DNA from: Lichenifustis flavocetrariae
GTDB taxonomy: Bacteria > Pseudomonadota > Alphaproteobacteria > Rhizobiales > Beijerinckiaceae
Assembly: GCF_026130545.1 (NCBI RefSeq)
Contig: NZ_JAMOIM010000005.1
Location: forward strand, 186,001-250,000
DNA length: 64,000 nucleotides
Direction: 5' to 3'
Position numbers and translations under genes: made by a program. How positions within the stretch are numbered: position 1 is the first letter of the stretch; each line of letters begins with the position of its first letter. Under the pieces are notes generated by a model, which searched no databases, was not told where the DNA came from, and was given only the letters and a program-made list of their open reading frames with translations. Of the stretch, positions 12,329-64,000 are shown piece after piece.

Positions 12329-13621
12329 ATGAACAGGCTGAACCTGAGCGAGGCGGGGTTCGAACAGGCATTCGATGCACTGCTGGCAGCGGCGCGCGAC
12401 AGTGATGCGGACGTGGACGCCGCCGTCAAATCAATCGTCGACGACGTCAGGGCCAAGGGCGACGAAGCTTTGATCGAGCTGTCGCACCGTTTCGACCGGG
12501 TCGACCTCAAGGCGCAAAGCTTGCGCGTGTCCGAAGCGGAGATCGACGACGCGATCGATCGCGCGCCACGCGACGCACGGGACGCTCTCGCTTTCGCGCA
12601 TGGCCGGATCGAAGCCTATCATGCTCGCCAGAAACCTGCGGACCTCCGCTTCACGGATGCGCTCGGTGTCGAACTCGGCTGGCGGTGGCGCCCGATCGAG
12701 GCGGTCGGCCTCTATGTGCCGGGCGGCACGGCCAGCTACCCGTCCTCGGTGCTGATGAACGCGGTGCCGGCCAAGGTGGCGGGCTGCGCCAGGGTGGTGA
12801 TGACGGTGCCGACGCCCGACGGCGTGCTCAACCCGCTCGTCCTGGCCGCGGCCCGCCTCGCGGGCGTGGATGAGATCTACCGCGTCGGCGGCGCCCAGGC
12901 AGTGGCCGCTCTCGCCTACGGCACGGCGACGATCGCGCCGGTCGCCAAGATCGTGGGACCCGGCAACGCCTTCGTGGCGGCCGCGAAGCGCCGCGTGTTC
13001 GGCACGGTCGGCATCGACATGATCGCGGGGCCGTCGGAGGTTGTCATTTTGGCCGATCGCACAGCCGAACCCGCATGGATCGCGGCGGATCTCCTTGCGC
13101 AGGCCGAGCACGATACGGCCGCGCAATCCATTCTGATCACCGACGACACGGCGCTCGCGGCGGATGTGGAGCGTGAGGTGGAGCGGCAGCTCGCCACCCT
13201 GCCCCGCGCCGCCATCGCGGGCGCGAGCTGGCGCCATTTCGGCGCCGTGATCCTCGTGCCCAATCTCCGGGACGCGGTGCGGCTCGTTGATCGCCTCGCG
13301 CCCGAACATCTCGAGATCATCGCCGAGGATGCCGAAGGCCTCGCAGACGCTATCCACAATGCCGGCGCGATCTTCCTGGGTTCGTACACACCAGAGGCGA
13401 TCGGCGACTATGTGGGTGGATCGAACCACGTCCTGCCGACCGCGCGCTCGGCTCGGTTTTCATCCGGCCTGGGAGTTCTCGATTTCATGAAGCGGACGTC
13501 GATCCTTCGTTGCGATGCGACGAATCTTGCGGCCTTGGCACCGGCCGCCATCGCGCTGGGTCGGGCCGAGGGGCTCGACGCCCATGCTGCATCGGTCGAC
13601 ATCCGCACCCGTCGTGGCTGA
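12329..13621 (+). CDS. hisD: Histidinol dehydrogenase
   Basis: It catalyses the last two steps of histidine synthesis (L-histidinol to histidinal to histidine, two NAD+). The 430-residue length is canonical. Motifs include VGLYVPGGTASYPSS, RVGGAQAVAALAYG, GPGNAFV and GPSEV. The zinc ligands are the Gln and His of LLAQAEHD, the Asp in EAIGDYVGG and the His in DAHAASVDIR. The catalytic Glu-His pair is in APEHLEI. I start at the ATG behind GGGAGC; longer frames upstream overlap DUF2948. A distant HisD-family relative occurs at the right edge of the window. Confidence 0.97.
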   Translation: MNRLNLSEAGFEQAFDALLAAARDSDADVDAAVKSIVDDVRAKGDEALIELSHRFDRVDLKAQSLRVSEAEIDDAIDRAPRDARDALAFAHGRIEAYHARQKPADLRFTDALGVELGWRWRPIEAVGLYVPGGTASYPSSVLMNAVPAKVAGCARVVMTVPTPDGVLNPLVLAAARLAGVDEIYRVGGAQAVAALAYGTATIAPVAKIVGPGNAFVAAAKRRVFGTVGIDMIAGPSEVVILADRTAEPAWIAADLLAQAEHDTAAQSILITDDTALAADVEREVERQLATLPRAAIAGASWRHFGAVILVPNLRDAVRLVDRLAPEHLEIIAEDAEGLADAIHNAGAIFLGSYTPEAIGDYVGGSNHVLPTARSARFSSGLGVLDFMKRTSILRCDATNLAALAPAAIALGRAEGLDAHAASVDIRTRRG

Positions 13622-25011: not shown

Positions 25012-25102
25012 GGTGCAGCAACCTTGTTGCTGCACATGCCCTTCTTGGGCGTTTCCTCCCTAGACTTGGGCTGCTTGTGGCAACACGGGCAGCCCTTTTT
25101 TT
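25012..25102 (+). ncRNA. mmgR: mmgR/suhB-family small RNA
   Basis: No protein gene lies on the plus strand here, yet the sequence is built like an sRNA. A ten-base-pair hairpin (GTGCAGCAAC with GTTGCTGCAC, 25013-25035) comes first, then a short GCCC-TTCTT-GGGC hairpin. The single-stranded GTTTCCTCCC follows, an anti-Shine-Dalgarno segment at about 25051-25060. Last comes ACTTGGGCTGC, whose GGGCTGC pairs with GCAGCCC to form a terminator followed by seven Ts. CCTCCC plus ACTTGGGC-GC and the position directly upstream of a hisN/suhB-like gene match the alphaproteobacterial suhB RNA family (mmgR in Sinorhizobium, linked to nitrogen-dependent control of polyhydroxybutyrate). I identified it from memory of the family, not by a covariance search. 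Confidence 0.75.
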
Positions 25103-25111
25103 CGTGCAGGC

Positions 25112-50937: not shown

Positions 50938-51906
50938 TTATAGGCCTAGGCTTATTGGCTTGTTGGCGAGGCTCTTGCGGGCCCGAGACCCGACATCACC
51001 ACAGGTTTCCGAGAAGTAGGCCGTGGCGTGGTCGGTAAATTGCCGCAAGATCTGTCCGGGATGGGCGACGTCACGCGAAGCGAGCACAATGCGGAGCGGG
51101 CGAACGTCGTCGCTGATGGTGAGGGTTTTCACCTCACGACCATCGTAGGTCAGGGAGGACGGTGGTCGCATCACCAGCAGCGTGAAGCCGAAACCCGCCG
51201 CAACTGCGCTCCGCACAGCTTCGAGAGAGGACGACACATAAGACATGGCTGGTGCGAGGCCATGTTCGGCGAGCAGTTCCTCGAAGTAGGCGCGGCTCCC
51301 AGGCCCTTCGAGCATCACGTAGCGCTCATCTCGCAAGTCCGCCAAGGCGATCGATTGGCCCTTCGCAAGAGGATGATCGGCGGCCAGCACCACCATGGGC
51401 CGAAGCTCGGCGAGCGTCGCGACTGCCAAGCCGTCCAGTGCGGCCCCGCGATCGTAGGTCACGGCGACATCGATCGAACCGGTCCGGGCCGCCTCCGGGA
51501 GTTCGGCAAGCGACATCTCTCGTGGCTGGACCACGACACCGGGGGCCGCAACCGCAAAGCCGCGGATCAGGCCGGCGGAATAGAAGGGCGACAATGTTGC
51601 AAAGATTCCAAGGCGGATCTCGCCTGCGGTCTCGGCCGCCAGCGCCGCCGCTTCGCGCTGCACCTGCTCGGCCTGCTGTTCGAGCCGCGTGGCGTGCTGG
51701 AGGAAGATGCGGCCCTGCATGGTCAACGTCAGACCGCGCGCATGGTGCCGGTCGAACAGCACCAGTCCCGTCACGTCCTCGAGCTTCTCGATAGCCTGCG
51801 CCACAGAGGGCTGGGAGATGTTGAGCACACGGGCCGCCTGAGCGATTCCGCCGTGCGTCGCCACGGTCCGAAAATAGGTACACTGGCGAAGTGTGAAGCG
51901 AAGCAT
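50938..51906 (-). CDS. LysR family regulator, divergent from the Rieske oxygenase gene
   Basis: A 322-residue LysR protein: RFTLRQCTYFRTVATHGGIA with VLNISQPSVAQAIEKLED is the helix-turn-helix. The effector domain (from about 90) contains GSIDVAVTYDRG. It is closely similar in layout and wording to the other LysR of this region (58106-59056), so the two are probably paralogues reading related ligands. It is divergent from the Rieske oxygenase gene and likely controls it. The ATG at 51906 opens directly into the helix-turn-helix, as usual. Confidence 0.9.
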   Translation of the reverse strand: MLRFTLRQCTYFRTVATHGGIAQAARVLNISQPSVAQAIEKLEDVTGLVLFDRHHARGLTLTMQGRIFLQHATRLEQQAEQVQREAAALAAETAGEIRLGIFATLSPFYSAGLIRGFAVAAPGVVVQPREMSLAELPEAARTGSIDVAVTYDRGAALDGLAVATLAELRPMVVLAADHPLAKGQSIALADLRDERYVMLEGPGSRAYFEELLAEHGLAPAMSYVSSSLEAVRSAVAAGFGFTLLVMRPPSSLTYDGREVKTLTISDDVRPLRIVLASRDVAHPGQILRQFTDHATAYFSETCGDVGSRARKSLANKPISLGL

Positions 51907-51910
51907 ATCG

Positions 51911-51927
51911 TTGCTGGTCTCATGCAA
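51911..51927. promoter_or_regulatory. LysR-type inverted repeat
   Basis: TTGC-N9-GCAA (containing T-N11-A style symmetry) lies five bases upstream of the LysR start and about 95 bases before the Rieske gene. It is a candidate recognition or autoregulation site. Confidence 0.3.
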
Positions 51928-52022
51928 GGTTATTTGAGTTTTGCGCTTTCTTGAATTTGGCTCAGTCTTCGCCCAGCCGCTCGTTCCAAACATAGCGGCA
52001 CCGATGCCGAGAGAGGACCCTG

Positions 52023-53177
52023 ATGTCGCCTGCTCAACCAAGCGCCGAATTGCTCGAAGCGGCGCAACGGCCCTTTCCCGACGCCAAAGCCATGCCACCG
52101 AGCGTGTACACGAGCACCGCGTTTCTGGCGCGGGAGATCGAGACGATCTTCTCCAAGGAATGGATGTGCGTCGGCCGGTCGAGCAGCCTGGCTCAACCCG
52201 GTGACTATCTCACCTATGAGCTCGCGGGCCAGCCCGTGATGGTGTTGCGCGATCAAGCGGGCGCTCTTCGCGCCTTCTCGAACGTGTGCCTGCACCGCAT
52301 GTCGACGCTGATCGAGGGCACGGGCAACAAGCGCGCGATCGTCTGCCCCTACCATGCCTGGACCTATGGGCTCGACGGCCGGCTCCGCGGTGCGCCGTTC
52401 ATGACGGCGACCACCGGGTTCTGCAAGGACGACTACGTGCTGCCGTCGATCCGCTGCGAGGAGTGGCTCGGCTGGATCTATATCACGCTCGACCGGGAAC
52501 GCCCGAGCGTTTCCACGACCCTCGCACCCGTGGCCGACATGGTGTCGGACTACGGGATGGAGAACTACGTCGAGTGCTTCCGAGAGACCCACGTGTGGGA
52601 CACCAACTGGAAGGTGCTGGCCGAGAATTTCATGGAGAGTTACCACCTCCCGGTGTGCCATGCCGACACGGTGGGCGGGCATTCCAAGCTGTCCGAGATG
52701 GAGTGCCCCCCCGGCCTCGCGGCCTTCAACTATCATTGGATCACCAAGGAGGCGTCGCTGCCAATCGGCAACGCGCACCCCTCCAACACCCGGCTCGAGG
52801 GCCGCTGGCGCAAGACGACGGCCTTGCTCGCCCTTTATCCGAGCCACCTGATCACCCTCACGCCCGGTTATTTTTGGTACCTCTCGCTTCACCCAAAGGG
52901 CACCGGCCAGGTCGCCATGATCTTTGGCGGCGGCCTGTCGCCCGAGTTCATGGCCGATCCGCGCGCCGACGAATATGTGGCGACACTGAAGACACTTCTC
53001 GATGACGTGAACGTCGAGGATCGCGGCTGCACCGAGAAGGTGTTCCGCGGCCTCAACGCCGCCACGGCGCGGGCAGGTCACCTGTCCTACCTTGAGCGTC
53101 CGATCTACGATTTCATGCATTACCTGGCCGACCGCACCACCGGCTTCGACCGTTCCTTTGCGCTCGCCGCGGAATAG
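52023..53177 (+). CDS. Rieske non-heme iron oxygenase, betaine/N-demethylase type
   Basis: A 384-residue oxygenase alpha subunit. The Rieske [2Fe-2S] ligands are C89-x-H91 and C108-x2-H111. The mononuclear iron site is ENFMESYHLPVCH (N202, E205, H208, H213). ENFMESYH and the short length place it with the glycine betaine (GbcA), stachydrine and carnitine oxygenases, which break C-N bonds of quaternary amines, rather than with aromatic dioxygenases. No reductase gene is nearby, so electrons must come from elsewhere. GAGAGG precedes the ATG. It is convergent with the ABC transporter genes and divergent from a LysR gene. Confidence 0.86.
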   Translation: MSPAQPSAELLEAAQRPFPDAKAMPPSVYTSTAFLAREIETIFSKEWMCVGRSSSLAQPGDYLTYELAGQPVMVLRDQAGALRAFSNVCLHRMSTLIEGTGNKRAIVCPYHAWTYGLDGRLRGAPFMTATTGFCKDDYVLPSIRCEEWLGWIYITLDRERPSVSTTLAPVADMVSDYGMENYVECFRETHVWDTNWKVLAENFMESYHLPVCHADTVGGHSKLSEMECPPGLAAFNYHWITKEASLPIGNAHPSNTRLEGRWRKTTALLALYPSHLITLTPGYFWYLSLHPKGTGQVAMIFGGGLSPEFMADPRADEYVATLKTLLDDVNVEDRGCTEKVFRGLNAATARAGHLSYLERPIYDFMHYLADRTTGFDRSFALAAE

Positions 53178-53235
53178 TTGCGCCACGGTCGAGGCGTCCT
53201 TCTGCCCCGGCGGAGAACGGGCGCCTCGCAATCCG

Positions 53236-54054
53236 CTATCGGGCGGGAGCTCCGGAGCGGCCCTGCAGCCAGCCGATCAGGAGGAACAGGACCACGGCAA
53301 AGACCGTCAATAGCCCGGCCATGGCCAGGATGCCCGGGTTGATCTGGTCGCGGATGCCGGCCCACATCTGGCGCGGGATTGTGCGCTGCTCCGTGCCGCC
53401 GATGAACAGGATCACCACGACCTCGTCGAACGAGGTCGCAAAGGCGAAGATACTGCCCGTTGCGACGCCCGGCAGGATCTGGGGCAGCATCACCCGCCGG
53501 AACACCTCCCACGGTGTTGCCCCAAGGCTCGCGGCCGCACGCGACAGGGTCGTGTCGAAGGCCATGAGACGCGCCGTCACCGTGATGACCACGAAGGGCG
53601 TGCCGAGCGCCGCATGGGCCAGGATGACCCCGCTATGCGTGTTGGTCAGGCCGAGGGGCGCGAAAACGAGGTAGAGGCTCACCGCGACGACGACGATCGG
53701 GATGATCATCGGCGCGATCAGGATCGGCACGATCACGCCACGCAGCGGGAAGCTCGGGCGACTGATGCCGATCGCCGCCAGCGTGCCCAACGCAGTCGCG
53801 ATCGCCGTAGCGCTGAGCCCGATCACGAAGCTGTTGAGAATAGCCATCCGCCATTCGGGCGATCCGAGAACGAGCTCGTACCAGCCGAGCGTCAGACCGG
53901 TCAGCGGGTAGGAGAAGTAGCTGCTCTGGTTGAACGAGAGTGGAACGATGATGAGGATCGGCGCGACCAGAAAGACCAGCACGGCGGCAGAGAACACCCG
54001 AACGCCGCGATGCGCGATCCGCTCGGACAGGACGGCGGTGGTCTCAGTGCTCAT
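53236..54054 (-). CDS. ABC transporter permease (PotC type)
   Basis: A 272-residue inner-membrane permease with six helices. The EAA loop is AAASLGATPWEVFRRVMLPQILPG, which docks to the ATPase. It belongs to the polyamine/opine/2-aminoethylphosphonate importer group. It is the last gene of the importer set, starting 40 bases after the PotB-type gene. It forms the translocation pore with that protein. Confidence 0.93.
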   Translation of the reverse strand: MSTETTAVLSERIAHRGVRVFSAAVLVFLVAPILIIVPLSFNQSSYFSYPLTGLTLGWYELVLGSPEWRMAILNSFVIGLSATAIATALGTLAAIGISRPSFPLRGVIVPILIAPMIIPIVVVAVSLYLVFAPLGLTNTHSGVILAHAALGTPFVVITVTARLMAFDTTLSRAAASLGATPWEVFRRVMLPQILPGVATGSIFAFATSFDEVVVILFIGGTEQRTIPRQMWAGIRDQINPGILAMAGLLTVFAVVLFLLIGWLQGRSGAPAR

Positions 54055-54093
54055 GATCGCCGCCCGGACGTGATTGTTTGATGGTTTCCCATG

Positions 54094-55353
54094 TCATCCG
54101 AGCCGCAGCCGGTCGATGCCGACCAGGCGGTTGAACACCACGTAGACAGCGAGCGTGAAGACCACGAGGTAGACCGACAGCGCCCCCGCCAGCCCCCAAT
54201 TCAACTGACGATCCATCTGCAGCGCCACGAGCTGGCTGATCATCTCGTCGCCTGCGCCGCCGAGAAGCGCCGGCGTGATGTAGTAGCCGAGCGCCAGCAC
54301 GAAGACCAGGAATGCACCCGTCCCGATGCCGGGCAGTGTCAAGGGCACGTAGATGCGCAGGAACGCGAGGGCCGGATGAGCCCCGAGCGACACCGCCGCG
54401 CGTTGGTAGGCCGGCGAGATGCCCCGCATCACCGCGTAGTTGGCGAGGATCATGAAGGGAAGTAGCACGTGGGTCATGCCAATCAGCACGCCCGTGCGAT
54501 TGAACATCAACGCCATGGGTGCCGTCGTCAGACCGCTGCGTATCAGAAGGGCGTTGAAGACGCCATTCGGCTGCAGGAGCACGTACCACGCCGTGGTCCG
54601 CACCAGCAGCGAGGTCCAGAACGGCACTATGACGAAGATCATCAGGAAATTGCTTTGCCGTGCCGGCAGCGTGGCCAGCAAAAAGGCGACCGGGTAGCCG
54701 AGCACGAGGCAGATCAAGGCCACGGAGGCGCTGATCGCGAAGGTCCGCACGAACGCGCCGACGTAGATGGCCTGCGAGGGTTCGACGGGCTCGATCGCTC
54801 CGCTAACACCGACCCTGTGATCCATCGCGGTCAACAGGAAATCGGGCGTCCAGCGGTGGGCGGCCCGTCCAAGGAGCCGCCATGTTTCGGGTTCGCCCCA
54901 GCGCCGGTCGATCCGGAGCAGAGCCTCGTCGGCCTGCTCGCCCTCGGCGATCGGCATTTGCCGCACCGTCTTCAACAGCAGCGAGCGGAAGCCCGGCTCA
55001 TAGGTGTTGAGCCGTCGGGCCGCAGACGCAAGCGTTCCCCCGTCCTGCGCGGCCTGCAGGTCGGCCGCCAGGGCCTCGAACGTTTGCCGCGACGGCAAGG
55101 CCGGCGGTCCCGGCCATCTGGCCAGCAGAGCGGCAGTTTTCGGCACGGCGTTCGCCACCTCGTCGGTCTTGACGCTCATGATCAAGAGCTTGCCGATCGG
55201 CACAATGAAGGTCATCGCAAGAAAGATCAGCAGCGGAACGGCGAGCAGGAACGCCCGCATGGACTCGCGTCGTTGCGCGGCCCGGTAGCCGGCCCGCGGA
55301 TCAACCGTCCGGCTCCTTACGCCATCAAGTGCGGTTGCCTCCCTGGCGCTCAT
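54094..55353 (-). CDS. ABC transporter permease (PotB type)
   Basis: A 419-residue permease. The first helix (FLLAVPLLIFLAMTFIVPIG) is separated from the rest by a periplasmic insert of about 140 residues (roughly 60-200), longer than in PotB of E. coli (about 285 residues in total). The EAA loop is AAVSLGAHPALAFLRIYVPLTLPG. The large insert also occurs in some opine-type permeases and may contact the binding protein. It lies between the binding-protein gene and the PotC-type gene. Confidence 0.92.
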   Translation of the reverse strand: MSAREATALDGVRSRTVDPRAGYRAAQRRESMRAFLLAVPLLIFLAMTFIVPIGKLLIMSVKTDEVANAVPKTAALLARWPGPPALPSRQTFEALAADLQAAQDGGTLASAARRLNTYEPGFRSLLLKTVRQMPIAEGEQADEALLRIDRRWGEPETWRLLGRAAHRWTPDFLLTAMDHRVGVSGAIEPVEPSQAIYVGAFVRTFAISASVALICLVLGYPVAFLLATLPARQSNFLMIFVIVPFWTSLLVRTTAWYVLLQPNGVFNALLIRSGLTTAPMALMFNRTGVLIGMTHVLLPFMILANYAVMRGISPAYQRAAVSLGAHPALAFLRIYVPLTLPGIGTGAFLVFVLALGYYITPALLGGAGDEMISQLVALQMDRQLNWGLAGALSVYLVVFTLAVYVVFNRLVGIDRLRLG

Positions 55354-55468
55354 GCTGACAAACCGTGCATCCCCTGGTCAACCAATGGTGGGCGTCGCGA
55401 TGCCGCGACGTCCGGTCAGTGTCATGGCCCAACAGGCAGCGCTCGGCGAACCGGGCCGCCACCCGCCA

Positions 55469-56524
55469 CTATTGGCTCAGCCACGTCGTGAAACGATTGT
55501 TGATGCTGTCGAAATTGTCCGCCCAGAACTGCGCGTCGATCTGCAGCCCGTTCTTGAAGTTGTCTGGAGCGAGCGGCAGGTAGGGCAGCACGGCCTTGTC
55601 GACCTGAGGCACGGCCGACTTTCGCGGTGGCGCATAGGCGATGTAATTTGACAGCTTCCAGATCGTGTCGGGCCCCGACGCGTAGCTGACGAACTGCTTG
55701 GCCGCGTCAGTGTCCTTCGCGCCCTTCGGAATGGCCCACCACTCGTAATCGTAGACCTGCCCATCCCACACGATCGCAAAGGGACGCTTGTCCTGCTGCT
55801 GTGCGACCCGGATGCGGCCGTTGTAGGCCATTGTCATTGAGACGGCTCCGTCGGCAAGGAGCTGGGCCGCCTGGGCGCCTGCGTCCCAGAAGACCACCTG
55901 GCTCTTGATGGTCGACAGCTTTTTGAAGGCGCGGTCGAGCCCTTCCGGCGTGCCTAGAACCTTGTAGACGTCCTTGACCGGCACACCGTCCGCGATCAGC
56001 GCCCACTCGAGCGCGACCTTTGGACTCTTGCGCATGCCGCGCTTGCCCGGGAACTTGGTGACGTCGAAGAAGTCGCCGATCGTGGTGGGCGCGGTCGTCA
56101 AACGGGTCGTATCGTAGGCGTAAATGGTCGACCAGACCATTGACGCAACCGCACATGGCAAGACCGCGCCAGGGATGAAATCGGACGTGTCGCCGAGCAG
56201 CTTCGGATCGAGCTTTTGCAGGAGACCCTCGTCGCAGCCCGCGATGGCGTCGTTCGTCTCCATGTCGATCAGGTCCCATGTCGTGTTGCCGGCCTCGACC
56301 ATGCCGCGCAGCTTGGCGAGACCGCCATCGTAGTCTTCCTTGACGATGTTGGTCCCTGTCTTGGCCGTAAAGGGTACAAAGAAAGCCTTGTCGACGGCAC
56401 TTTCGAAACTGCCGCCGAAGGTCACGACCGTCAACGTGTCGGCCGCAACGGCCGGTGCCGCGAGCGCCATAACGCCCGTCGCCATCAGAAGCATGCGGCG
56501 GCTCGATTTAAGGACATTGAACAT
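55469..56524 (-). CDS. ABC transporter substrate-binding protein (PotD/PotF type)
   Basis: A 351-residue periplasmic protein; its signal peptide runs to about AVAAD. TLTVVTFGGSFESAVDKAFF and WDLIDMETNDAIAGCDEGLL are typical of the polyamine/opine binding group. EWALIADGV and WWAIPKGAKD are the usual C-lobe segments. Substrates of this group include polyamines, opines, betaines and aminophosphonates. A very strong AGGAGG precedes the ATG, consistent with the excess of binding protein needed. It lies between the ATPase gene and the permease genes. Confidence 0.93.
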   Translation of the reverse strand: MFNVLKSSRRMLLMATGVMALAAPAVAADTLTVVTFGGSFESAVDKAFFVPFTAKTGTNIVKEDYDGGLAKLRGMVEAGNTTWDLIDMETNDAIAGCDEGLLQKLDPKLLGDTSDFIPGAVLPCAVASMVWSTIYAYDTTRLTTAPTTIGDFFDVTKFPGKRGMRKSPKVALEWALIADGVPVKDVYKVLGTPEGLDRAFKKLSTIKSQVVFWDAGAQAAQLLADGAVSMTMAYNGRIRVAQQQDKRPFAIVWDGQVYDYEWWAIPKGAKDTDAAKQFVSYASGPDTIWKLSNYIAYAPPRKSAVPQVDKAVLPYLPLAPDNFKNGLQIDAQFWADNFDSINNRFTTWLSQ

Positions 56525-56558
56525 TTGCGACCTCCTCGAAACTGGTGAACACAGGTTG

Positions 56559-57689
56559 TCAGGCACCGTCCGCTGCAACAATCTTGCAGTCGTCGGGGCT
56601 CCAGGACATTGTCGCGACCATCCCGGGCTGAGGCGGCGCCATAGCGGTCTTATTCGGGACCTTGATGACGAAGCCGGCACGGTCCGCCGCCGTCAAGTGC
56701 AATCGCCAATGGTCCCCGCAGTAGATCACCTCGTCGATGCTTCCACGGAGATGGTTGTTTTCACCCCCTGTCTCGTCGTCGAGCGATACATTCTCAGGAC
56801 GCAGCGCGAGAGTCGCCGCCGTGCCGATCGCCACCCCTTCGCCCGCGCGGCCTCGGATCGACAGCTCGGGCGTCAGCGCGAGGGTGGCGAAGCGCGCGTC
56901 GCGGGCCGTCACCGTGCCGGGCAGACCGTTGTTCTCGCCAATGAAGTTGGCCACGAAGGCGTTAGCCGGATCCTCGTAGAGAATTTTCGGCGTTGCGATC
57001 TGCTGGATTCGGCCGTGGTGGAACACCGCGACACGGTCCGACATCGTCAGGGCTTCGGACTGATCATGGGTCACATACACCACCGTGACACCCAAGCGCT
57101 CATGGATGCGCTTGATCTCGTACTGCATGGTTTCGCGCAGGTTCTTGTCGAGCGCTCCGAGCGGCTCGTCCATCAAAACAAGCTTGGGTTCGAAGACCAG
57201 CGCCCGGGCTAGGGCCACACGCTGCTGCTGTCCACCAGATAGCTGGGCCGGACGGCGCCCGGCCACATGCACAAGCTCGATCATGCCGAGCGCCCGCTCG
57301 ACGCGGCTGCGCTGCTCGGATTTCGGCACCCGCCGGACAGACAAGGGAAAGGCAATGTTTTCGGCCACCGTCATGTTCGGGAACAGCGCGTAGTTTTGAA
57401 ACACCATGCCGATGTTGCGTCGGTGCGGCGGCGTCTCGTTCAACCGACTCTGGCCGAGGTAGACCGTGCCGCCGCTCGGCGCTTCGAAGCCTGCGAGCAT
57501 CATGAGAGTCGTGGTCTTGCCCGACCCCGACGGCCCGAGAAGTGAGAGAAATTCCCCTTCCTGGATCGTGAAATTGAGGTTCCGGGTGACGAAGGTCTCC
57601 CCATCATAGGTCTTGTCGATGTTCGAGAACGTCACGAGCGGCTTGGAAGCCGGGAGCCGTTGGTCCACTGACGCTTGCCCGCCAGCCAT
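56559..57689 (-). CDS. ABC transporter ATP-binding protein (PotA type)
   Basis: A 376-residue ATPase with Walker A GPSGSGKTT, Q-loop FQNYALFP, signature LSGGQQQRVALARAL, Walker B LVLMDEP and the H-loop THDQ. The C-terminal 120 residues are a TOBE regulatory domain (LALRPENVSL). It powers the importer whose other parts follow at once. The ATG at 57689 follows from family length; the open frame further upstream is not conserved. It is the first gene of the importer set, downstream of a LysR gene on the same strand. Confidence 0.94.
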   Translation of the reverse strand: MAGGQASVDQRLPASKPLVTFSNIDKTYDGETFVTRNLNFTIQEGEFLSLLGPSGSGKTTTLMMLAGFEAPSGGTVYLGQSRLNETPPHRRNIGMVFQNYALFPNMTVAENIAFPLSVRRVPKSEQRSRVERALGMIELVHVAGRRPAQLSGGQQQRVALARALVFEPKLVLMDEPLGALDKNLRETMQYEIKRIHERLGVTVVYVTHDQSEALTMSDRVAVFHHGRIQQIATPKILYEDPANAFVANFIGENNGLPGTVTARDARFATLALTPELSIRGRAGEGVAIGTAATLALRPENVSLDDETGGENNHLRGSIDEVIYCGDHWRLHLTAADRAGFVIKVPNKTAMAPPQPGMVATMSWSPDDCKIVAADGA

Positions 57690-58105
57690 CAATGACGCCT
57701 GAAGCCGCGCTGCCCGGCGAAGGGCGGAACGAACCCGGCCCGGCCACACGTGCGACGGATCACGGGGCGAGAGGGCCAGGGCGATGCGGGCGGTTCGGTT
57801 GCACTCATCGAAACGCCCCTGGCTGCGGAAGTTCGGCTGGCACCGCCCATGGCGGACCCAGGCCACTAAACAAACCTCGACGGATCACGGTCAAGTCCAG
57901 CTTTTATGGTGCTCGACCTCGGATATTCCGAAGCTGGCGTCCGAGCGCCGGGATGCTCCGAAAGGGTGCAGGATCAGCAGGCGATTGTTGAGATGCTGGG
58001 CGACAAGCCTATGTTTTAAACGCAAGACGCCGTTGGCCCTTTCGAAGATCTCAGCCTGGCTGTCACGTGCTCCCGAAGGCTTTTGCGTCCGGCGGCCAGG
58101 GTCGC
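57690..58105. promoter_or_regulatory. Intergenic stretch upstream of the importer genes
   Basis: About 415 bases lie between the LysR gene and the importer ATPase gene, both leftward. I see no gene. It probably carries the importer promoter and LysR sites, because it is far longer than other gaps in this region. A short AT-rich patch (ATGTTTTAAACG at about 58011-58022) is the only standout. Confidence 0.4.
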
Positions 58106-59056
58106 TCAGCCACTCGCCGGACGCGCCTCGTATTGGGGGGCCACCATACCCGAGATGTAGCTGTCCGAAACGAAGGATTCGCAGTGGGTCGCAAAGGCGC
58201 GTACGAGTTGGGTCTGCTCCAACGCTTTCAGGGTGGCGGAGCCAACGATCATCGGGCGATGTGTCCCGGCCAAGCGCACCCGAACCACCTTGCGGCCATC
58301 GAGGGCGACATCCGACCGCGGCCGGACATTGAACAGCGTGTAGCCATAACCGTTCGCCACCATGGTCCGTATCACCTCCTGGTGCGCCGAACGTGTCACG
58401 ATATTGGGGCTGAGCCCCTCCTTGATGAACAGGCTCAGAAAATACTCGCGGCTGAGCGGCAGGTCGAGAAGGATCAGCGGTTCGGCCTCGAGCTCCTTGA
58501 GGGTCAGGGCCGAGTGGCGCGCAAGCGGGTGGCCGTCGCTCAGCAGAACATGGGGCGGCAGCCGGGCGAGCGGACGAAAGTCGATGTCGGTCGGCAACTG
58601 CAGATCGTAGGTCAGGGCAATGTCGATCTGGGACCGCCGAAGCCCTGATAGAAGCTCTTCTTGATTGCCTTCAACATGCCGGACCCGTGTCGCCGGAAAC
58701 GACTGGGTAAAGGCATGCGCCAGTTCTGGCGCCAGCATCGGGGCAAGCGTCACCATGCAGCCGAACGACAACGTGCCGCGGATCTGCCCGTGCGCCTCGG
58801 AGGCGCAAGTATAGAGCCCCTCCACCTGGGCGATGACCTTCTTGGCCTCGAACAACATGCTTCGTCCGGTCGGCGTGAGGGACAGCCCTTGCGCGTGATG
58901 GCGGATGAAGAGCTGGACGCCGAACTCCTGTTCGAGATGCGAGATCGCGGCCGAAATCGACGGCTGCGAGATGTGGACACGCTCGGACCCCAACGTGATG
59001 CTGCCCGTTTCGCCAGCTGCGATGAAATACTCGAGCTGACGTAGAGTGAAACGCAC
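58106..59056 (-). CDS. LysR family regulator of the importer/catabolic cluster
   Basis: A 316-residue LysR protein: MRFTLRQLEYFIAAGETGSI and VHISQPSISAAISHLEQEFG form the helix-turn-helix. The effector domain (QIDIALTYDLQLP, VANGYGYTLFNVRPRSDVALDGRKV) resembles that of the LysR at 50938-51906 closely enough to suggest duplication. It sits between the deacylase gene and the importer, in line with both, so it may be read from the same transcript and control it in response to the imported compound. Confidence 0.92.
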   Translation of the reverse strand: MRFTLRQLEYFIAAGETGSITLGSERVHISQPSISAAISHLEQEFGVQLFIRHHAQGLSLTPTGRSMLFEAKKVIAQVEGLYTCASEAHGQIRGTLSFGCMVTLAPMLAPELAHAFTQSFPATRVRHVEGNQEELLSGLRRSQIDIALTYDLQLPTDIDFRPLARLPPHVLLSDGHPLARHSALTLKELEAEPLILLDLPLSREYFLSLFIKEGLSPNIVTRSAHQEVIRTMVANGYGYTLFNVRPRSDVALDGRKVVRVRLAGTHRPMIVGSATLKALEQTQLVRAFATHCESFVSDSYISGMVAPQYEARPASG

Positions 59057-59196
59057 GAGGCCCTGATCTCCATCGGCCGGTACGCCCCGCCAACGCTCGG
59101 GCCGAGGGGCCCCTCAAGGCTGGCTTTACACGGTCTCACCCGTTCTGTCGCGACGGGCGTCTCTGGGCAGGGTCGACCACAGTGCCCGAGCGAGGC

Positions 59197-60342
59197 TCAA
59201 AGGCAGCGTTTGAGCAGTCGCTCCATCATTCGATCGCAGGCCTCGAGCTGATCGAGCGCGATGAACTCGTCGGCCTTATGACCCTGGTCCATCGAACCCG
59301 GACCGCAGACCACGACCGGTACGCCGAGCTGTTCCGTGAACAGCCCCCCTTCGGTGCCGAACGCAACCTTGCTGGTCTCGGGCTCGTCCACGAGACCTTC
59401 GACGAAGCGCACCACCTCGGCGTCCGGTGGAGTGGCGAGACCTGGATATCGATTGAACACCTCAATGCGGATGTCGGCCTGGGGGAATGCCCGCCGGTTC
59501 CGGTCGGAGATCGCCGCGGCCGCATCCATCAGCCCGCCCAGAATGGCCTCGCTGTCGTCCTCCGCGATATTGCGGATCTCGAAATCGATCGTGCACCGGT
59601 CCGGGACGATGTTGAGCGCCGTGCCGCCGGCGATGCGACCCACGTGGAGGGTCGAATAGGGGACATCGTAGTCCGGGTCGCGCGCACCTTCCCGCGCGAG
59701 ATCGTCTTGCCGCGTGCGCACGGCCGCCACGAAATCGCAGGCGAGGTGGATGGCGTTGAGCGCGCGCGGCGCAAGCGCCGAATGGGCTGCGACGCCGCAG
59801 CAGGTTGCCCGTGCGCCGATCTTGCCTTTGTGACCCGTCGCGATCCGCATGGACGTGGGCTCCCCCACGATGGCCAACCGGGGCTGCAAACCGCGCGCCG
59901 CAAGACTTGCGAGCATCGGCCTGACCCCGACGCAACCTGTCTCCTCGTCATGGCTGAAGGCGAGGTGGATGGGCGTGCGCAACGTCGCCTGGGCGGCGTG
60001 ATCGACAAGTCGCAGGGCAGCTGCCAGGAAGCCCTTCATATCAGTCGTCCCACGCCCGAAGGCCCGCCCGTCATCTAGCGTCAGGCGGAACGGATCGGTG
60101 GTCCAGGGCTGGCCGTCGACCGGCACCACATCCGTGTGGCCGGACAGCAGGATGCCGGGTATGTCGGCGGGGCCAACGGTTGCGAACAGGTTGGCCTTGC
60201 GTCCGGCCTCCGCCTCGAACAGCTCCGCTTGCACGCCGCGTGCGGCGAGATAGTGCCTGACGAACTCGATCAGCGCGCGATTGGGGTCGCGGCTGACGGT
60301 GGGAAACGCCACGAGGCGATCGAGGAGCTCGAGCGTGGTCAT
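59197..60342 (-). CDS. argE: M20 family deacylase, acetylornithine deacetylase (ArgE) type
   Basis: A 381-residue zinc amidohydrolase. The metal ligands are the His of LLSGHTDVVPVDG, the Asp of GRGTTDMKGF, the Glu pair of SHDEETGCVG (the first Glu is the base), the Glu of IVGEPT and the His near GSMDQGHKADE. ArgE-type activity removes an acyl group from an amino-acid nitrogen. Many paralogues next to catabolic genes act on other N-acyl amino acids, and this cluster argues for such a role rather than arginine synthesis. It starts 27 bases after the monooxygenase gene stop. Confidence 0.88.
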   Translation of the reverse strand: MTTLELLDRLVAFPTVSRDPNRALIEFVRHYLAARGVQAELFEAEAGRKANLFATVGPADIPGILLSGHTDVVPVDGQPWTTDPFRLTLDDGRAFGRGTTDMKGFLAAALRLVDHAAQATLRTPIHLAFSHDEETGCVGVRPMLASLAARGLQPRLAIVGEPTSMRIATGHKGKIGARATCCGVAAHSALAPRALNAIHLACDFVAAVRTRQDDLAREGARDPDYDVPYSTLHVGRIAGGTALNIVPDRCTIDFEIRNIAEDDSEAILGGLMDAAAAISDRNRRAFPQADIRIEVFNRYPGLATPPDAEVVRFVEGLVDEPETSKVAFGTEGGLFTEQLGVPVVVCGPGSMDQGHKADEFIALDQLEACDRMMERLLKRCL

Positions 60343-60368
60343 GCGTTCTCGTCTACGGGAGGAGGTGT

Positions 60369-61649
60369 TCAAGCGACCTTGTCGACGGGTTGGGACAACG
60401 GAGGTGGCTCATAGGCTAGGTACTTGGCCTGGGTTGCGATGCGATCGGCCAGGTACTTGGCATCGTGCCAGACACCCCAGATGAAACTCGAGCCGCGGCG
60501 CGTCTGCCAGGGTAGGCCCAGGAAGAAGATGCCGGGCTCCGATCCGACGCCGCGCGTCTGCTTCGGCAAGCCGTTTTGGTCAAGCACTTCGGGAGGGAGC
60601 CAATTGTAGTCGACCGAGTAGCCGGTGGCCCAAAGGATCGACGTGATGCCGGTCTGCCGAGGATCGAGCGTTCGGATCAGGTGGGTGAGGCAGTCCGGGT
60701 CGGGCCCGATCACCCGAGCCTCGGGGTCGGGGGGCAGATCAAGGCCGTTGCGGGCCACATAGGCGTCGGCCTCGTCGAGCAGTCCCAGGTAGTTGGCGTC
60801 GCCCCCAGCGATGTTCTCGCGGAGATCGCCCGCAAAGGTCAGCAAGCCGCCATGGTACGTTTCCGTGCGCCCGAGCAACACAATGCCGGCGGCCGCGAGC
60901 CGCCGAAAGTCGATCGTTTCGCCGCCGTGGGCACCACTCACCGCGATCGTGACATGCTGCATGTTCGGACCCGGCGACTCGAGATCCCACTTGCCGAGCA
61001 CGCCGAGCCACCAGCAGAAATCCCGGCCCCGGTAGGCGCGGGGTGGACGCCCGTGCGGTCCAACCGACAAGTAGACGCGTCGGCCTGCGCGCAGCAGCTC
61101 ATCGGCGATTTGCACGCCCGACGAGCCCGCCCCGACGACCAGGACGGCGCCGGCCGGGAGCTGCTTCGGATTGCGGTAGTCGGCCGAATGCAGCTGCGTG
61201 AGGCCGGCCGCATCCGGCACGACCGCAGGCCGGACGGGGTTCTGGAAAGGACCCGTCGCGGCCACCACGTTGAGCGCCTCGACAATGCCTTGAGATGTCT
61301 CGACCATGAAGCCCGGACAGCCGGGCCGACGATGCACCTTGCGCACTTCGACACCGCAGCGGACCGGTGCCTCAATCATCTTTGCATAATCGACGAAATA
61401 GTCGGCGACCTGCTCCTTTGTCACGAAACTGTCGGGATGGGCGTCGGCGAAGACCATGCCGGGAAAGCGGTCGTGCCAGGCCGGGCCGTTGGCTACAAGC
61501 GAGTCCCAACGGCCCGAGCGCCAGCGCTCGGCGATGCGGGCGCGTTCGAGCACGAGGTGCGGCAGGCCATGCGCCCGAAGATGCTCGCTCATGGCCAGTC
61601 CCGCCTGGCCGGCGCCGACCACGAGCGTGTTGATCTTGTCGACTGACAT
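60369..61649 (-). CDS. Flavin-containing monooxygenase
   Basis: A 426-residue FAD/NADPH enzyme of the YUCCA/Trimethylamine-monooxygenase-like group. GAGQAG (residues 12-17) binds FAD and GAGSSG (about 172-177) binds NADPH. ATGYSVDYNWLP near residue 345 is the late FMO motif. FMOs oxygenate amines, sulfides or ketones. In a cluster with a Rieske C-N cleaving enzyme and RidA, an N-oxygenation role is attractive but unproven. AGGAAGG precedes the ATG. Confidence 0.88.
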   Translation of the reverse strand: MSVDKINTLVVGAGQAGLAMSEHLRAHGLPHLVLERARIAERWRSGRWDSLVANGPAWHDRFPGMVFADAHPDSFVTKEQVADYFVDYAKMIEAPVRCGVEVRKVHRRPGCPGFMVETSQGIVEALNVVAATGPFQNPVRPAVVPDAAGLTQLHSADYRNPKQLPAGAVLVVGAGSSGVQIADELLRAGRRVYLSVGPHGRPPRAYRGRDFCWWLGVLGKWDLESPGPNMQHVTIAVSGAHGGETIDFRRLAAAGIVLLGRTETYHGGLLTFAGDLRENIAGGDANYLGLLDEADAYVARNGLDLPPDPEARVIGPDPDCLTHLIRTLDPRQTGITSILWATGYSVDYNWLPPEVLDQNGLPKQTRGVGSEPGIFFLGLPWQTRRGSSFIWGVWHDAKYLADRIATQAKYLAYEPPPLSQPVDKVA

Positions 61650-61826
61650 TGGTGAGACTTCCTTCCTGAGCGATCCGGGACGCCCGCGGGTCCGGAAGAC
61701 AGACCGTGCCGGATGAGGGCCAGGGCGCCTGATCTGCCACCAGCGTAGCGGATGCGGCCAGCCCGGAAAGCAGGGTTAACCGAAACCGCGCGTCGGTATT
61801 TCCGAGGCGGCAGGCCTGGCGCCGAA

Positions 61827-62501
61827 TTACAGATCTCCCGGCACCCCGTAGCTCGGCGCACCCGTCGGATGAAGAGCGCGGATCACATAGGCGTCGAGTT
61901 GAGGCTGGTACAGAGCCCAGAGCGCCTCGACACCAGCAATCGGGCAATCCTGCGTCCAGTCCACCCGCAGATCCGCCACGGGCCAGGACACGGCATCGAC
62001 GAGTTTCAGACCCGCCGAATGGATCGGCCCGGCTTCGCCGCCGCGGGCGAGGCCCGCCCGCATGGCGAGAAGCAGGCGATCGCCCAGGTGGCCCTGCGAG
62101 GCCTCGAAGCTCTCCACCATGGCGGCCGGCACCTGCGGGTCCGCCAGGAGGTTGCCGCCGCAAGCGACGTTTTCGCCTTCGGCGCTCGCCCACACCCCAA
62201 GCGCCCGCGGTCCGGAATGGGTCGCGGTCCGCCCACGGTTGTCGACCGCCAGCACCTGCCGATAGTCCATGTGCTCCGTCGAGCCGCGCAAGGCCGCAAT
62301 CGCCTGCTCGGCACTCGCCCCGAGTGCCATCAGGTCGAGCACACGGGGGCCAAGCGCCGGGTCGGTGATGTTCTGGCTCGCCACCGCCCCGACGCCCGCC
62401 CGCGCATGGGCGCAACGGGCTGCCACCGCAGGCGACGATGACGCGACCGCCATTCCAAACCAACCTGTCTCGGCACAGCGCGCAACGATCGAGAATGTCA
62501 T
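61827..62501 (-). CDS. DUF1028 domain protein (Ntn-hydrolase-like)
   Basis: A 224-residue protein with the DUF1028 pattern MTFSIVARCAETGWFGMAVASSSPAV, VGAVASQNITDPALGPRVLDLM, RQVLAVDNRGRTATHSG and VACGGNLLADPQV. The fold resembles Ntn hydrolases such as the proteasome, suggesting amidase or peptidase chemistry, but no activity is established. Its ATG overlaps the stop of the RidA gene (ATGA), so the two are made together. Pairings of DUF1028 with RidA in amino-acid or amide breakdown clusters support a joint role. Confidence 0.9.
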   Translation of the reverse strand: MTFSIVARCAETGWFGMAVASSSPAVAARCAHARAGVGAVASQNITDPALGPRVLDLMALGASAEQAIAALRGSTEHMDYRQVLAVDNRGRTATHSGPRALGVWASAEGENVACGGNLLADPQVPAAMVESFEASQGHLGDRLLLAMRAGLARGGEAGPIHSAGLKLVDAVSWPVADLRVDWTQDCPIAGVEALWALYQPQLDAYVIRALHPTGAPSYGVPGDL

Positions 62502-62923
62502 GGACGGGCCTCGGGTATGACCGCGATCGCGTCGACCTCGACCAGCCATTCCGGCCGGGCGAGGGCCGAGACCACGATGCCGGTCGAGACCGGGAACACG
62601 CCCTTCAACCACTTGCCAACGACGCGATAGACCGCCTCCCGGTAGCGCGGGTCGACGATATAGATCGTGATTTTGCAGATGTGCTCAAGCTCGGAGCCGG
62701 CTTCCCTCAGCAGTGTGGCGATGTTGGACATCGCCCGCTCGGTCTGCCCCGCGGCATCGCCGATCGCCACGCTTGCGGCCGTGTCGAGGTCCTGCCCGAT
62801 CTGGCCGCGCACGAACACCATGGTGCCCCGCGCCACCACGGTCTGGCACAAGTCGTTGTCGAGCTTCTGCTCGGGATAGGTGTCCTTTGTGTTGAAAGGT
62901 CGAACGCGTGTATGGACCGTCAT
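62498..62923 (-). CDS. RidA family protein
   Basis: A 141-residue RidA/YER057c member. Trimers hydrolyse reactive enamine/imine intermediates formed by PLP or oxidative enzymes. GTMVFVRGQIGQDLD, AMSNIATLLREAGSELEHICKITIYIVDPRYREAVYRVVG and the final VEVDAIAVI are typical. The conserved Arg of archetypal RidA (in the RNCL motif) is not obvious here, so it may belong to an Rid subfamily with different chemistry. GGAG lies nine bases before the ATG. Confidence 0.88.
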   Translation of the reverse strand: MTVHTRVRPFNTKDTYPEQKLDNDLCQTVVARGTMVFVRGQIGQDLDTAASVAIGDAAGQTERAMSNIATLLREAGSELEHICKITIYIVDPRYREAVYRVVGKWLKGVFPVSTGIVVSALARPEWLVEVDAIAVIPEARP

Positions 62924-63139
62924 GGGGCACGTCTCCAAAGGCGAGCACGGGTGGAGGTCGACCCTGAAGCTCAGCATCCCATAGATGTGCGGCAGGTCGC
63001 CACCATGCCGCAAGACGGCAATTGCGTTGCATTGCTTTGCAAAATCCTCGGAACTCGTCGGGAGCTGGGGCGCGGGATACAGGCCCCGGATCCGATGCCT
63101 CATCCGCGATGATCGCCGCCGCGGCTTGAGCCATCCGGG

Positions 63140-64000
63140 TCAGTCAGCGAGCAACTGCCCTTTGCTGAGCCGGAAGGCGGCGGCGCGGCGATGCCCTTCC
63201 ATGCCCTCCGTCGCGCTCTGCCTGATCGCTGGGGGCGCAACCGCGGCCACGCCGCGCTCGTCGAGCCACAGATGGGTGCAGATCTTCACGTAGGATCCGA
63301 CCCAGAGGCCCCCCGTGTAGCGGCCGGCCGCCATGGTGGGGAGCGTGTGGTTCGTGCCGCAGCACTTGTCGGAGTAGACCACACTGGAGAGCGGGCCGAT
63401 GAACAGCGAACCGTAGTTGCGCAGGACCTTGGCCGTGGCGTGCGGATCGCGGGTGTGAACCTGCAGATGCTCGGCCGCGATGAAATCCGAGTAGCCGATC
63501 ATGGCCTGCTCGTCGGCGCAGACCACGATCTCTCCGTAATCGCGCCAGGCTTCGCCTGCGACGTTGGCGGTCGACAGGGTCTTGAGCTGACGTTCGACCT
63601 CCACGAGCGTAGCCTCCGCCAGGGCGCGGTCGGTCGTGATGAGCCCGACCCGGGTCCGCACGTCGTGTTCGGCCTGGGCCAAGAGGTCGGTCGCGATCAT
63701 CTCCGGGTCGCCGGTCTCGTCGGCGACCACGAAAATCTCGCTCGGACCGGCCAACTGGTCGATGCCGACGGGGCCGAAGACCTGCCGCTTCGCTTCGTTC
63801 ACATAGGCGTTGCCCGGGCCGGCGATCTTGTCGACAGCCGGGACGCTCTCTGTGCCGAAGGCCATCGCGGCGATCGCCTGCGCGCCGCCGATCCGGAAGA
63901 TGCGGTCGGCGCCGGCCAAGTGGCAGCCGGCGATCATGGCCGAGTGGGCGCCCGGGGGTAGACAGGCGATCACCGTGTCGCATCCTGCGACCTTGGCCGG
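63140..64000 (-). CDS. Histidinol dehydrogenase-family enzyme, catabolic paralogue (5' end outside window)
   Basis: The last 286 residues of a HisD-fold enzyme; the start lies beyond the right edge. IGGAQAIAAMAFGTE, AGPGNAYVNEAKRQVFG and GPSEIFVVAD are present. The zinc ligands (Gln and His of LLAQAEHD, Asp in VVYSDKCCG, His in MEGHRRAA) and the catalytic EH pair (AAEHLQVH) are kept, so it should be active. Wording differs clearly from the biosynthetic hisD at 12.3 kb and resembles catabolic relatives such as sulfopropanediol dehydrogenase (HpsN). It probably oxidises an alcohol to a carboxylate in the pathway of this cluster. About 215 bases separate it from ridA. Confidence 0.88.
   Translation of the reverse strand, partial: PAKVAGCDTVIACLPPGAHSAMIAGCHLAGADRIFRIGGAQAIAAMAFGTESVPAVDKIAGPGNAYVNEAKRQVFGPVGIDQLAGPSEIFVVADETGDPEMIATDLLAQAEHDVRTRVGLITTDRALAEATLVEVERQLKTLSTANVAGEAWRDYGEIVVCADEQAMIGYSDFIAAEHLQVHTRDPHATAKVLRNYGSLFIGPLSSVVYSDKCCGTNHTLPTMAAGRYTGGLWVGSYVKICTHLWLDERGVAAVAPPAIRQSATEGMEGHRRAAAFRLSKGQLLAD

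Follow-up and report, generated by a model that had tools for sequence, protein, structure and literature searches.

The window analysed here is a stretch of 64,000 nucleotides, positions 186001-250000 of contig C136 in the genome of Lichenifustis flavocetrariae (7.5 Mb, 180 contigs). At its right-hand end (50938-64000) lies an island with genes for a Rieske oxygenase, a class-B-like flavin monooxygenase (FMO), RidA, DUF1028 and ArgE-type proteins, an ATP-binding cassette (ABC) importer and LysR regulators, which is a real and widely shared bacterial gene set. To judge from its sequence, the island may serve to import an N-methylated zwitterionic N-heterocycle (a ring betaine) and to degrade it aerobically, with homarine (N-methylpicolinate) as the first candidate; we propose this tentatively and would place it a little below an even chance. 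A sequence-only reading had taken the region for an undescribed catabolic module acting on an N-acylated and/or N-methylated amino compound. The genes it named are all there and belong to the families it gave, as judged from the open reading frames (ORFs) of the window and their assignment with Pfam and NCBIfam models. All are intact ORFs, and only the HisD-family gene runs off the window.

The linkage of these genes is conserved. Named genomes were scanned with a Rieske profile made from an alignment of seven sequences (A2), and the best 80 of at least 574 relatives were kept (L033-L112). Twelve island genes, with the HisD query taken from locus L006, were then compared by tblastn with these 80 loci and 21 plasmid loci, and identity thresholds for gene presence were chosen by eye from the resulting table. 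The 53 Rieske loci of at least 21 kb are called full-flank here, the other 27 being excluded for short flanks. Near the Rieske gene, FMO is found in 32 of the 53, RidA in 36, DUF1028 in 39 and ArgE in 33; at least one of the four is present in 43 and all four in 28, and 21 loci combine the four core enzymes with the four-gene importer. A wider set of 102 related loci of any length was drawn from Rieske, DUF1028 and FMO searches; its proportions are not a census, and five near-duplicate pairs (at least 95% DNA identity over 3 kb) remain in its counts. Rieske, FMO, RidA, DUF1028, ArgE and a LysR2-type gene occur together in 38 of the 102. These counts bear out both the proposal that the genes form a single linked catabolic set served by an importer of its own and the expectation that the same set would be met in other genomes.

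It could still be argued that the region is a mere juxtaposition of unrelated units, two or three in number (HisD; the stretch from RidA to LysR2; ABC genes plus Rieske), given the roughly 380 bases that separate LysR2 from the ATPase gene (whose start is provisional), the position of the Rieske gene on the opposite strand, and the lack of HisD at any of the 102 loci. However, the same neighbours recur in alpha- and betaproteobacteria in differing gene orders, which makes this explanation very improbable for the island. Chance placement appears likely for HisD and unlikely for the remaining genes.

Annotated relatives of the island are found in Paraburkholderia sprentiae (L015, with no ArgE seen), Caballeronia (L016), Paracoccus alcaliphilus (L014), Tropicibacter (L017), Pseudosulfitobacter (L013) and Thioclava (L022). 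Three Methylobacterium loci (L048, L050, L051) are close in content, all without HisD in the stretch examined; ArgE was not seen in L048 and L050, nor the importer on the short L051. The Paraburkholderia and Caballeronia loci (L015, L016) likewise match the island closely in content. A flavoprotein resembling old yellow enzyme or trimethylamine dehydrogenase is encoded in 8 loci, and an NCS1-type permease is encoded in 9. The association of the Rieske and DUF1028 genes extends to whole genomes. Among 199 genomes of the order, 27 contain the Rieske gene (E<=1e-80) and 39 a strong DUF1028 match (at least 300 bits), the latter in 22 of the 27 Rieske-positive genomes versus 17 of the 172 others (Fisher p 2.5e-14, with relatedness ignored). 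In 10 of the 27 genomes the two genes share a contig, at most about 9 kb apart. One of these ten, G133, is outside the 22, its DUF1028 match being split and under the 300-bit cut; in the other 13 of the 22 shared genomes the genes are on different contigs or far apart. Rieske matches above 600 bits are confined to 10 of the 199 genomes, and in the class 3 of 385 genomes have a match at E<=1e-170. The six same-family genomes listed all fall short of the cut, whether for Rieske, for DUF1028 or for close HisD. The island is therefore probably laterally acquired; its distribution is patchy.

The 71 loci of the wider set with DUF1028 (at least 40% identity) are informative about the oxygenation chemistry. 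FMO is present in 54 and an HpaB-type monooxygenase in 13, while none has both and four have neither (the enterobacterial L023 and L025 and the short L065 and L071). If the two enzymes were distributed independently, such a lack of overlap would arise with a chance of 4e-11 (kinship and near-duplicates ignored). As FMO and HpaB never occur together, they look interchangeable, and the lack of overlap fits one shared peroxyflavin oxygenation. The HpaB-type protein of one locus was scanned with Pfam and matches PF11794/PF03241; enzymes of this type act on hydroxy-aromatic substrates. For the FMO of the island, the best curated NCBIfam model is MSMEG_0569, of which it is not a member (339 bits against a cut-off of 498.35). 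Of the 71 loci, 66 have RidA nearby and 56 ArgE.

The description of the Rieske oxygenase as betaine-type is supported. Both of its Pfam domains score over cut-off, and residues C89, H91, C108, H111, H208, H213 and D333, which we take to be the Rieske Cys/His ligands and the His-His-Asp triad of the mononuclear site, are invariant in 7/7 aligned sequences. The best solved relative is the carnitine monooxygenase CntA (131.7 bits; 161.7 bits in a profile search). When the island protein (NWKVLAENFMESYH) is aligned with CntA (NWKVIVDNYMECYH), a Glu occupies the bridging place in both, and this residue, E205, is again invariant in all seven sequences. Glu instead of Asp at the bridging position is presumably the mark of the quaternary-ammonium subgroup (CntA/GbcA). 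Membership of the common family does not make the enzyme a GbcA, since this best NCBIfam match reaches 141.6 bits against a cut-off of 670, and, unlike in the CntA/GbcA systems, no reductase was recognised among the island ORFs of at least 150 amino acids. The closest reductase homologue in the genome is unlinked (C74, 43% identity). In several relatives, a second Rieske gene of type B, a 2Fe-2S ferredoxin gene (PF00111) and a ferredoxin reductase gene adjoin the Rieske gene or lie near it. A type B gene was not found in this genome, where the best match covering most of the query (only 34%) is the Rieske gene of the window itself. In L098 (a Sulfitobacter relative) and L157, a further Rieske-type oxygenase adjoins a glutamine-synthetase-like gene near the Rieske pair (by eye).

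The importer is a complete PotABCD-type system, with ATPase, two permeases and binding protein encoded together. Import of polyamines is disfavoured: the PotD and PotF equivalogs remain far under their cut-offs (for PotD, 47.9 bits against 582), and the nearest solved relatives of the binding protein include binders of gamma-aminobutyric acid (GABA) and opines. The best of these relatives is 8JV1, for which a literature search found no paper; it is followed by a GABA sensor, the Agrobacterium protein 4EQ7, and agropine and mannopine binders. In an alignment of 15 sequences, Arg237 of the binding protein is invariant and Glu261 nearly so, and they align with an Arg and an Asp of 4EQ7, presumably the GABA ligands Arg203 and Asp226. 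With the residue roles so assumed, the Arg/Glu pair points to a zwitterion, carrying both a carboxylate and a cation, as the ligand. A binding protein of the island type occurs near the Rieske gene in 29 of the 53 full-flank loci. In a Beijerinckiaceae relative (L036 5395-7602, minus strand), a large outer-membrane-protein-like gene lies between Rieske and importer (by eye). A link to the MocR/GABA regulon was considered and rejected: the available text of PMC5320631 mentions ArgE and RidA apart, never joined with this gene set.

The RidA and amidohydrolase genes of the earlier account are likewise present. The DUF1028 protein is taken to start with Met-Thr-Phe-Ser, invariant in 18/18 sequences (Met-Thr in 14/14 of another alignment), the Met being the presumed start; the L020 protein is annotated with a longer N-terminus. 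A Thr directly after the start Met is as expected for an N-terminal-nucleophile (Ntn) hydrolase. It is kept in 2IMH, the sole significant solved relative, presumably classed among the Ntn hydrolases, and DUF1028 is predicted to be an Ntn-type amidohydrolase. A literature search on DUF1028 returned no paper. RidA proteins hydrolyse imines and enamines, and M20 enzymes hydrolyse amides. The island ArgE exceeds the NCBIfam cut-off for acetylornithine deacetylase, which is a match to the family and separate from a substrate assignment, and RidA scores 33.7 bits against the RutC model (cut-off 169.1).

These elements can be arranged into a hypothetical pathway. The PotABCD-type importer would take up the zwitterion, and the Rieske enzyme, with electrons from an unlinked reductase, would oxidise the N-methylated ring. 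FMO, or the HpaB-type enzyme in some relatives, would put a second oxygen on the ring, by then electron-rich. The resulting lactam could be opened hydrolytically by DUF1028 through its N-terminal threonine, RidA would hydrolyse the released enamine or imine, and the ArgE-type enzyme would strip off a remaining N-formyl or N-acyl group, the products being an open-chain acid and either methylamine or an amino acid. Both LysR proteins might respond to the substrate or to an intermediate. While gene content, conservation, monooxygenase alternation and residue conservation are observed, the reactions and the substrate are inferred.

The same inventory might instead degrade an aliphatic N-methyl or N-acyl amino compound, with N-demethylation by the Rieske enzyme, N-oxidation by FMO, deacylation by ArgE and imine clearance by RidA. 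The GbcA/CntA-type Rieske protein, an ArgE over its cut-off and a GABA-type binding protein would all suit such a substrate. However, the presence of FMO or HpaB in 67 of the 71 DUF1028 loci and the additional hydrolase DUF1028 exceed the needs of plain deacylation or demethylation, and the substrates of HpaB-type enzymes are hydroxy-aromatics. We regard this explanation as rather unlikely. The opening of an N-methylated ring appears to fit the inventory as a whole better: an importer of the zwitterion type, a Rieske enzyme of the quaternary-ammonium type, a peroxyflavin hydroxylase for which HpaB can stand in, RidA, and two presumed amidohydrolases. Of the N-acyl and/or N-methyl substrate first proposed, the plain N-acyl amino acid is thus weakened by the nearly constant company of a peroxyflavin-type monooxygenase.

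Some loci provide leads towards ring betaines. A BCCT transporter gene is found in L030, and the flavoproteins like old yellow enzyme or trimethylamine dehydrogenase in 8 loci, noted above, are a further lead. In two Roseobacter relatives (L008 3081-7891, L104 3673-8468), genes for an AA_synth protein (PF06684), a hydrolase, a flavin reductase, a luciferase-type monooxygenase and an aldehyde dehydrogenase lie directly upstream of FMO. This group looks like a pyridine-ring-opening set, presumably of the kind seen in trigonelline breakdown. The trigonelline pathway (TgnA/TgnB), which opens an N-methylpyridine carboxylate ring, is comparable with the island through these two loci, where the luciferase-type set stands beside the core, but the oxygenases differ. 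According to the accessible part of PMC8269262, TgnA/TgnB are unlikely to act on homarine, homarine is abundant in marine particles, and Ruegeria pomeroyi DSS-3 grew less effectively on homarine than on trigonelline; a correction (PMC10134881) states that the concentrations given for homarine were too high. In 2026 a conserved pathway for homarine was published, as cited in PMC13390433, with N-methylglutamate dehydrogenase taking part in it, which makes the label "undescribed" doubtful. Far from being entirely unknown, the pathway to which the island belongs may well be one described very recently. Our own literature search, in which coverage of subscription papers was thin, found no paper on this gene set. 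The island resembles the homarine operon at most possibly: its relatives include marine Roseobacters, while in the island an ABC importer and a HisD gene are adjacent. The operon of Ferrer-Gonzalez et al. (Nat Microbiol, 2026) is reportedly homABCDER, five enzymes and a regulator. The possible agreement in gene number with the 38 six-gene loci (e.g. L017) is a lead, not a test.

Several observations weigh against a dedicated ring-betaine pathway. No ferredoxin or reductase for the Rieske enzyme was recognised in the window or in L006, in a search that could miss a short ferredoxin. N-methylglutamate dehydrogenase was not identified in this genome, though a cluster of MgsA/MgsB/MgsC-like genes was found (L113, C104:42000-57379), followed by glutamine-synthetase-like and monomeric sarcosine-oxidase-like genes (partly by eye). 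The gene set is not uniform, as 4 of the 38 six-gene loci have a second Rieske gene; an extra one is also seen in L157 (by eye). The Rieske gene occurs alone too, with none of the four core genes in 10 of the 53 full-flank loci. Conversely, 16 of the 71 DUF1028 loci lack this Rieske gene in the stretch seen, and the core is hence not specific to one betaine.

The last point is what would be expected if RidA-DUF1028-ArgE with FMO or HpaB formed a general back end for N-heterocycles of many kinds (pyridines and rings of the pyrimidine or vitamin-B6-like type), which the Rieske enzyme adapts to one substrate and for which N-methylation is optional. The Rieske-less loci have varied transporters as neighbours: Acetobacter (L020) and Klebsiella (L024) have a cytosine-type permease with GMC oxidase and aldehyde dehydrogenase, Mycolicibacterium (L019) has an MFS transporter, and Paracoccus (L012, L027) has a branched-chain ABC importer with HpaB. 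TRAP neighbours accompany the core in L010 (Bradyrhizobium, with no Rieske gene of this type seen) and in L011. The recurrence of one importer type in the Rieske-bearing loci (29/53) argues for one ligand class there, and as an account of the island we consider the general back end doubtful. A related suggestion, confined to the role of the cassette, is somewhat easier to entertain, if still short of an even chance: RidA, DUF1028 and the ArgE-type enzyme may form a general back-end cassette that mineralises ring-opened N-heterocycles and whose partner oxygenases (an FMO of class B or HpaB, Rieske being optional) and importers can be exchanged, with DUF1028 as the lactam- or amide-opening N-terminal-threonine hydrolase. 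The pyrimidine Rut pathway, in which flavin oxygenation, an amidohydrolase and a RidA-type step act on a nitrogen ring, can be likened to the island. RutA and RutB were unmatched among the general family hits, no dedicated search having been made, and the RidA score, as given above, is far below the RutC cut-off.

Dehydroquinase-like genes are found near RidA-DUF1028-ArgE in L011, L023, L025 and L029. On the Klebsiella and Pantoea plasmids that L023 and L025 represent, RidA-DUF1028-ArgE is accompanied by a quinone oxidoreductase, a glutathione S-transferase, a type II dehydroquinase and a hydroxypyruvate-reductase-like gene, and the stretch seen has neither FMO nor HpaB; L023 also has an IS66 element immediately upstream. 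To the right of the window, a shikimate-dehydrogenase-like gene (by eye) adjoins a type II dehydroquinase-like gene (L006 8018-9512, minus strand).

The HisD-family gene at the window edge had been counted among the module. The gene extends some 430 bases beyond that edge and is complete in the genome (match C136:249143-250450), but it was rejected as a conserved member on linkage, as tblastn placed HisD near none of the 53 full-flank Rieske loci and none of the 102 related loci. A second HisD at C136:198425-199606 (window 12425-13606, plus strand) scores 534 bits against 436 for the edge gene and presumably is the biosynthetic hisD; because of this better-scoring gene in the same genome, the edge HisD is presumably dispensable for histidine. 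Its best solved relatives are dehydrogenases of 2,3-dihydroxypropane-1-sulfonate (DHPS), with the (R)-DHPS dehydrogenase HpsN on top (316.6 bits). It differs from HpsN in having its own close orthologues (74-82%), found in 8 other genomes of the 199, most of them beside PotD-type binding proteins. Such a binding protein (42-49%) adjoins HisD in 6 of 8 fetched loci (L115-L120) and in Microvirga (L021), while in L154 an XRE-type regulator and a kinase-like gene are the neighbours (families by eye). FMO, RidA, DUF1028, ArgE and Rieske genes were absent from the HisD orthologue loci, eight of which span only about 4.3 kb. The exclusion of HisD is countered by the finding of strong DUF1028 in 6 of the 9 genomes with close HisD (this one included) versus 33 of the 190 others (p 0.002, kinship ignored). 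Outside this genome, HisD and DUF1028 are on other contigs or 42 kb apart, and no such link exists between close HisD and Rieske (2/9 genomes, p 0.35). HisD is probably a neighbour with partners of its own elsewhere, outside the conserved linkage. A tie to the core in function is possible, physical linkage being ruled out only in the loci examined.

The layout of the region is given in Table 1. G+C content is uniform (0.63-0.68). DUF1028 and RidA overlap by 4 bases, 26 bases separate the FMO stop from the ArgE start, and 216 bases lie between the HisD end and the likely RidA start. LysR1 has counterparts of at least 58% identity in 9 of the 53 full-flank Rieske loci; judged by eye from the ORFs, the genes to its left are one for cysteine synthase, dut and coaBC. 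Elsewhere in the window, Rfam detects a suhB/mmgR small RNA at 25031-25110 (plus strand, 66.7 bits).

Table 1. Features of the island and its right-hand neighbour, in window coordinates
Feature	Position	Strand	Family evidence
LysR regulator 1, divergent from Rieske gene; left edge of island	50938..51906	-	PF00126, PF03466
LysR1-Rieske divergent intergenic stretch, presumed regulatory	51907..52022	.	
Rieske non-haem iron oxygenase, GbcA/CntA-like, bridging Glu205	52023..53177	+	PF00355 + PF00848
ABC permease, PotC-like	53236..54054	-	BPD_transp_1; Pfam, NCBIfam
ABC permease, PotB-like, long N-terminal extension	54094..55353	-	BPD_transp_1; Pfam, NCBIfam
Periplasmic binding protein, GABA/opine-type PotD branch	55469..56524	-	SBP_bac_8
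ABC ATPase, PotA subfamily (start provisional)	56559..57722	-	TIGR01187 365.6 bits, cut-off 355.6
LysR regulator 2, downstream end of enzyme gene train	58106..59056	-	Pfam
ArgE-type M20 amidohydrolase	59197..60342	-	TIGR01892 376.3 bits, cut-off 297.7
Class-B-like flavin monooxygenase (FMO)	60369..61649	-	Pfam, NCBIfam
DUF1028 protein, predicted Ntn-type amidohydrolase (Thr2), putative mechanism	61827..62501	-	PF06267
RidA-family enamine/imine deaminase; start placed by homology	62498..62923	-	PF01042
HisD-family alcohol dehydrogenase (HpsN-like), crosses window edge; probably outside conserved module	63140..64000	-	PF00815

The alternation of FMO and HpaB offers a handle on the chemistry, as the reaction of FMO should equal that of HpaB. 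If the proposed function is true, DUF1028 would gain a testable role, and a ring-betaine route known from marine work would extend to root-nodule Paraburkholderia (L015), Caballeronia and Methylobacterium.

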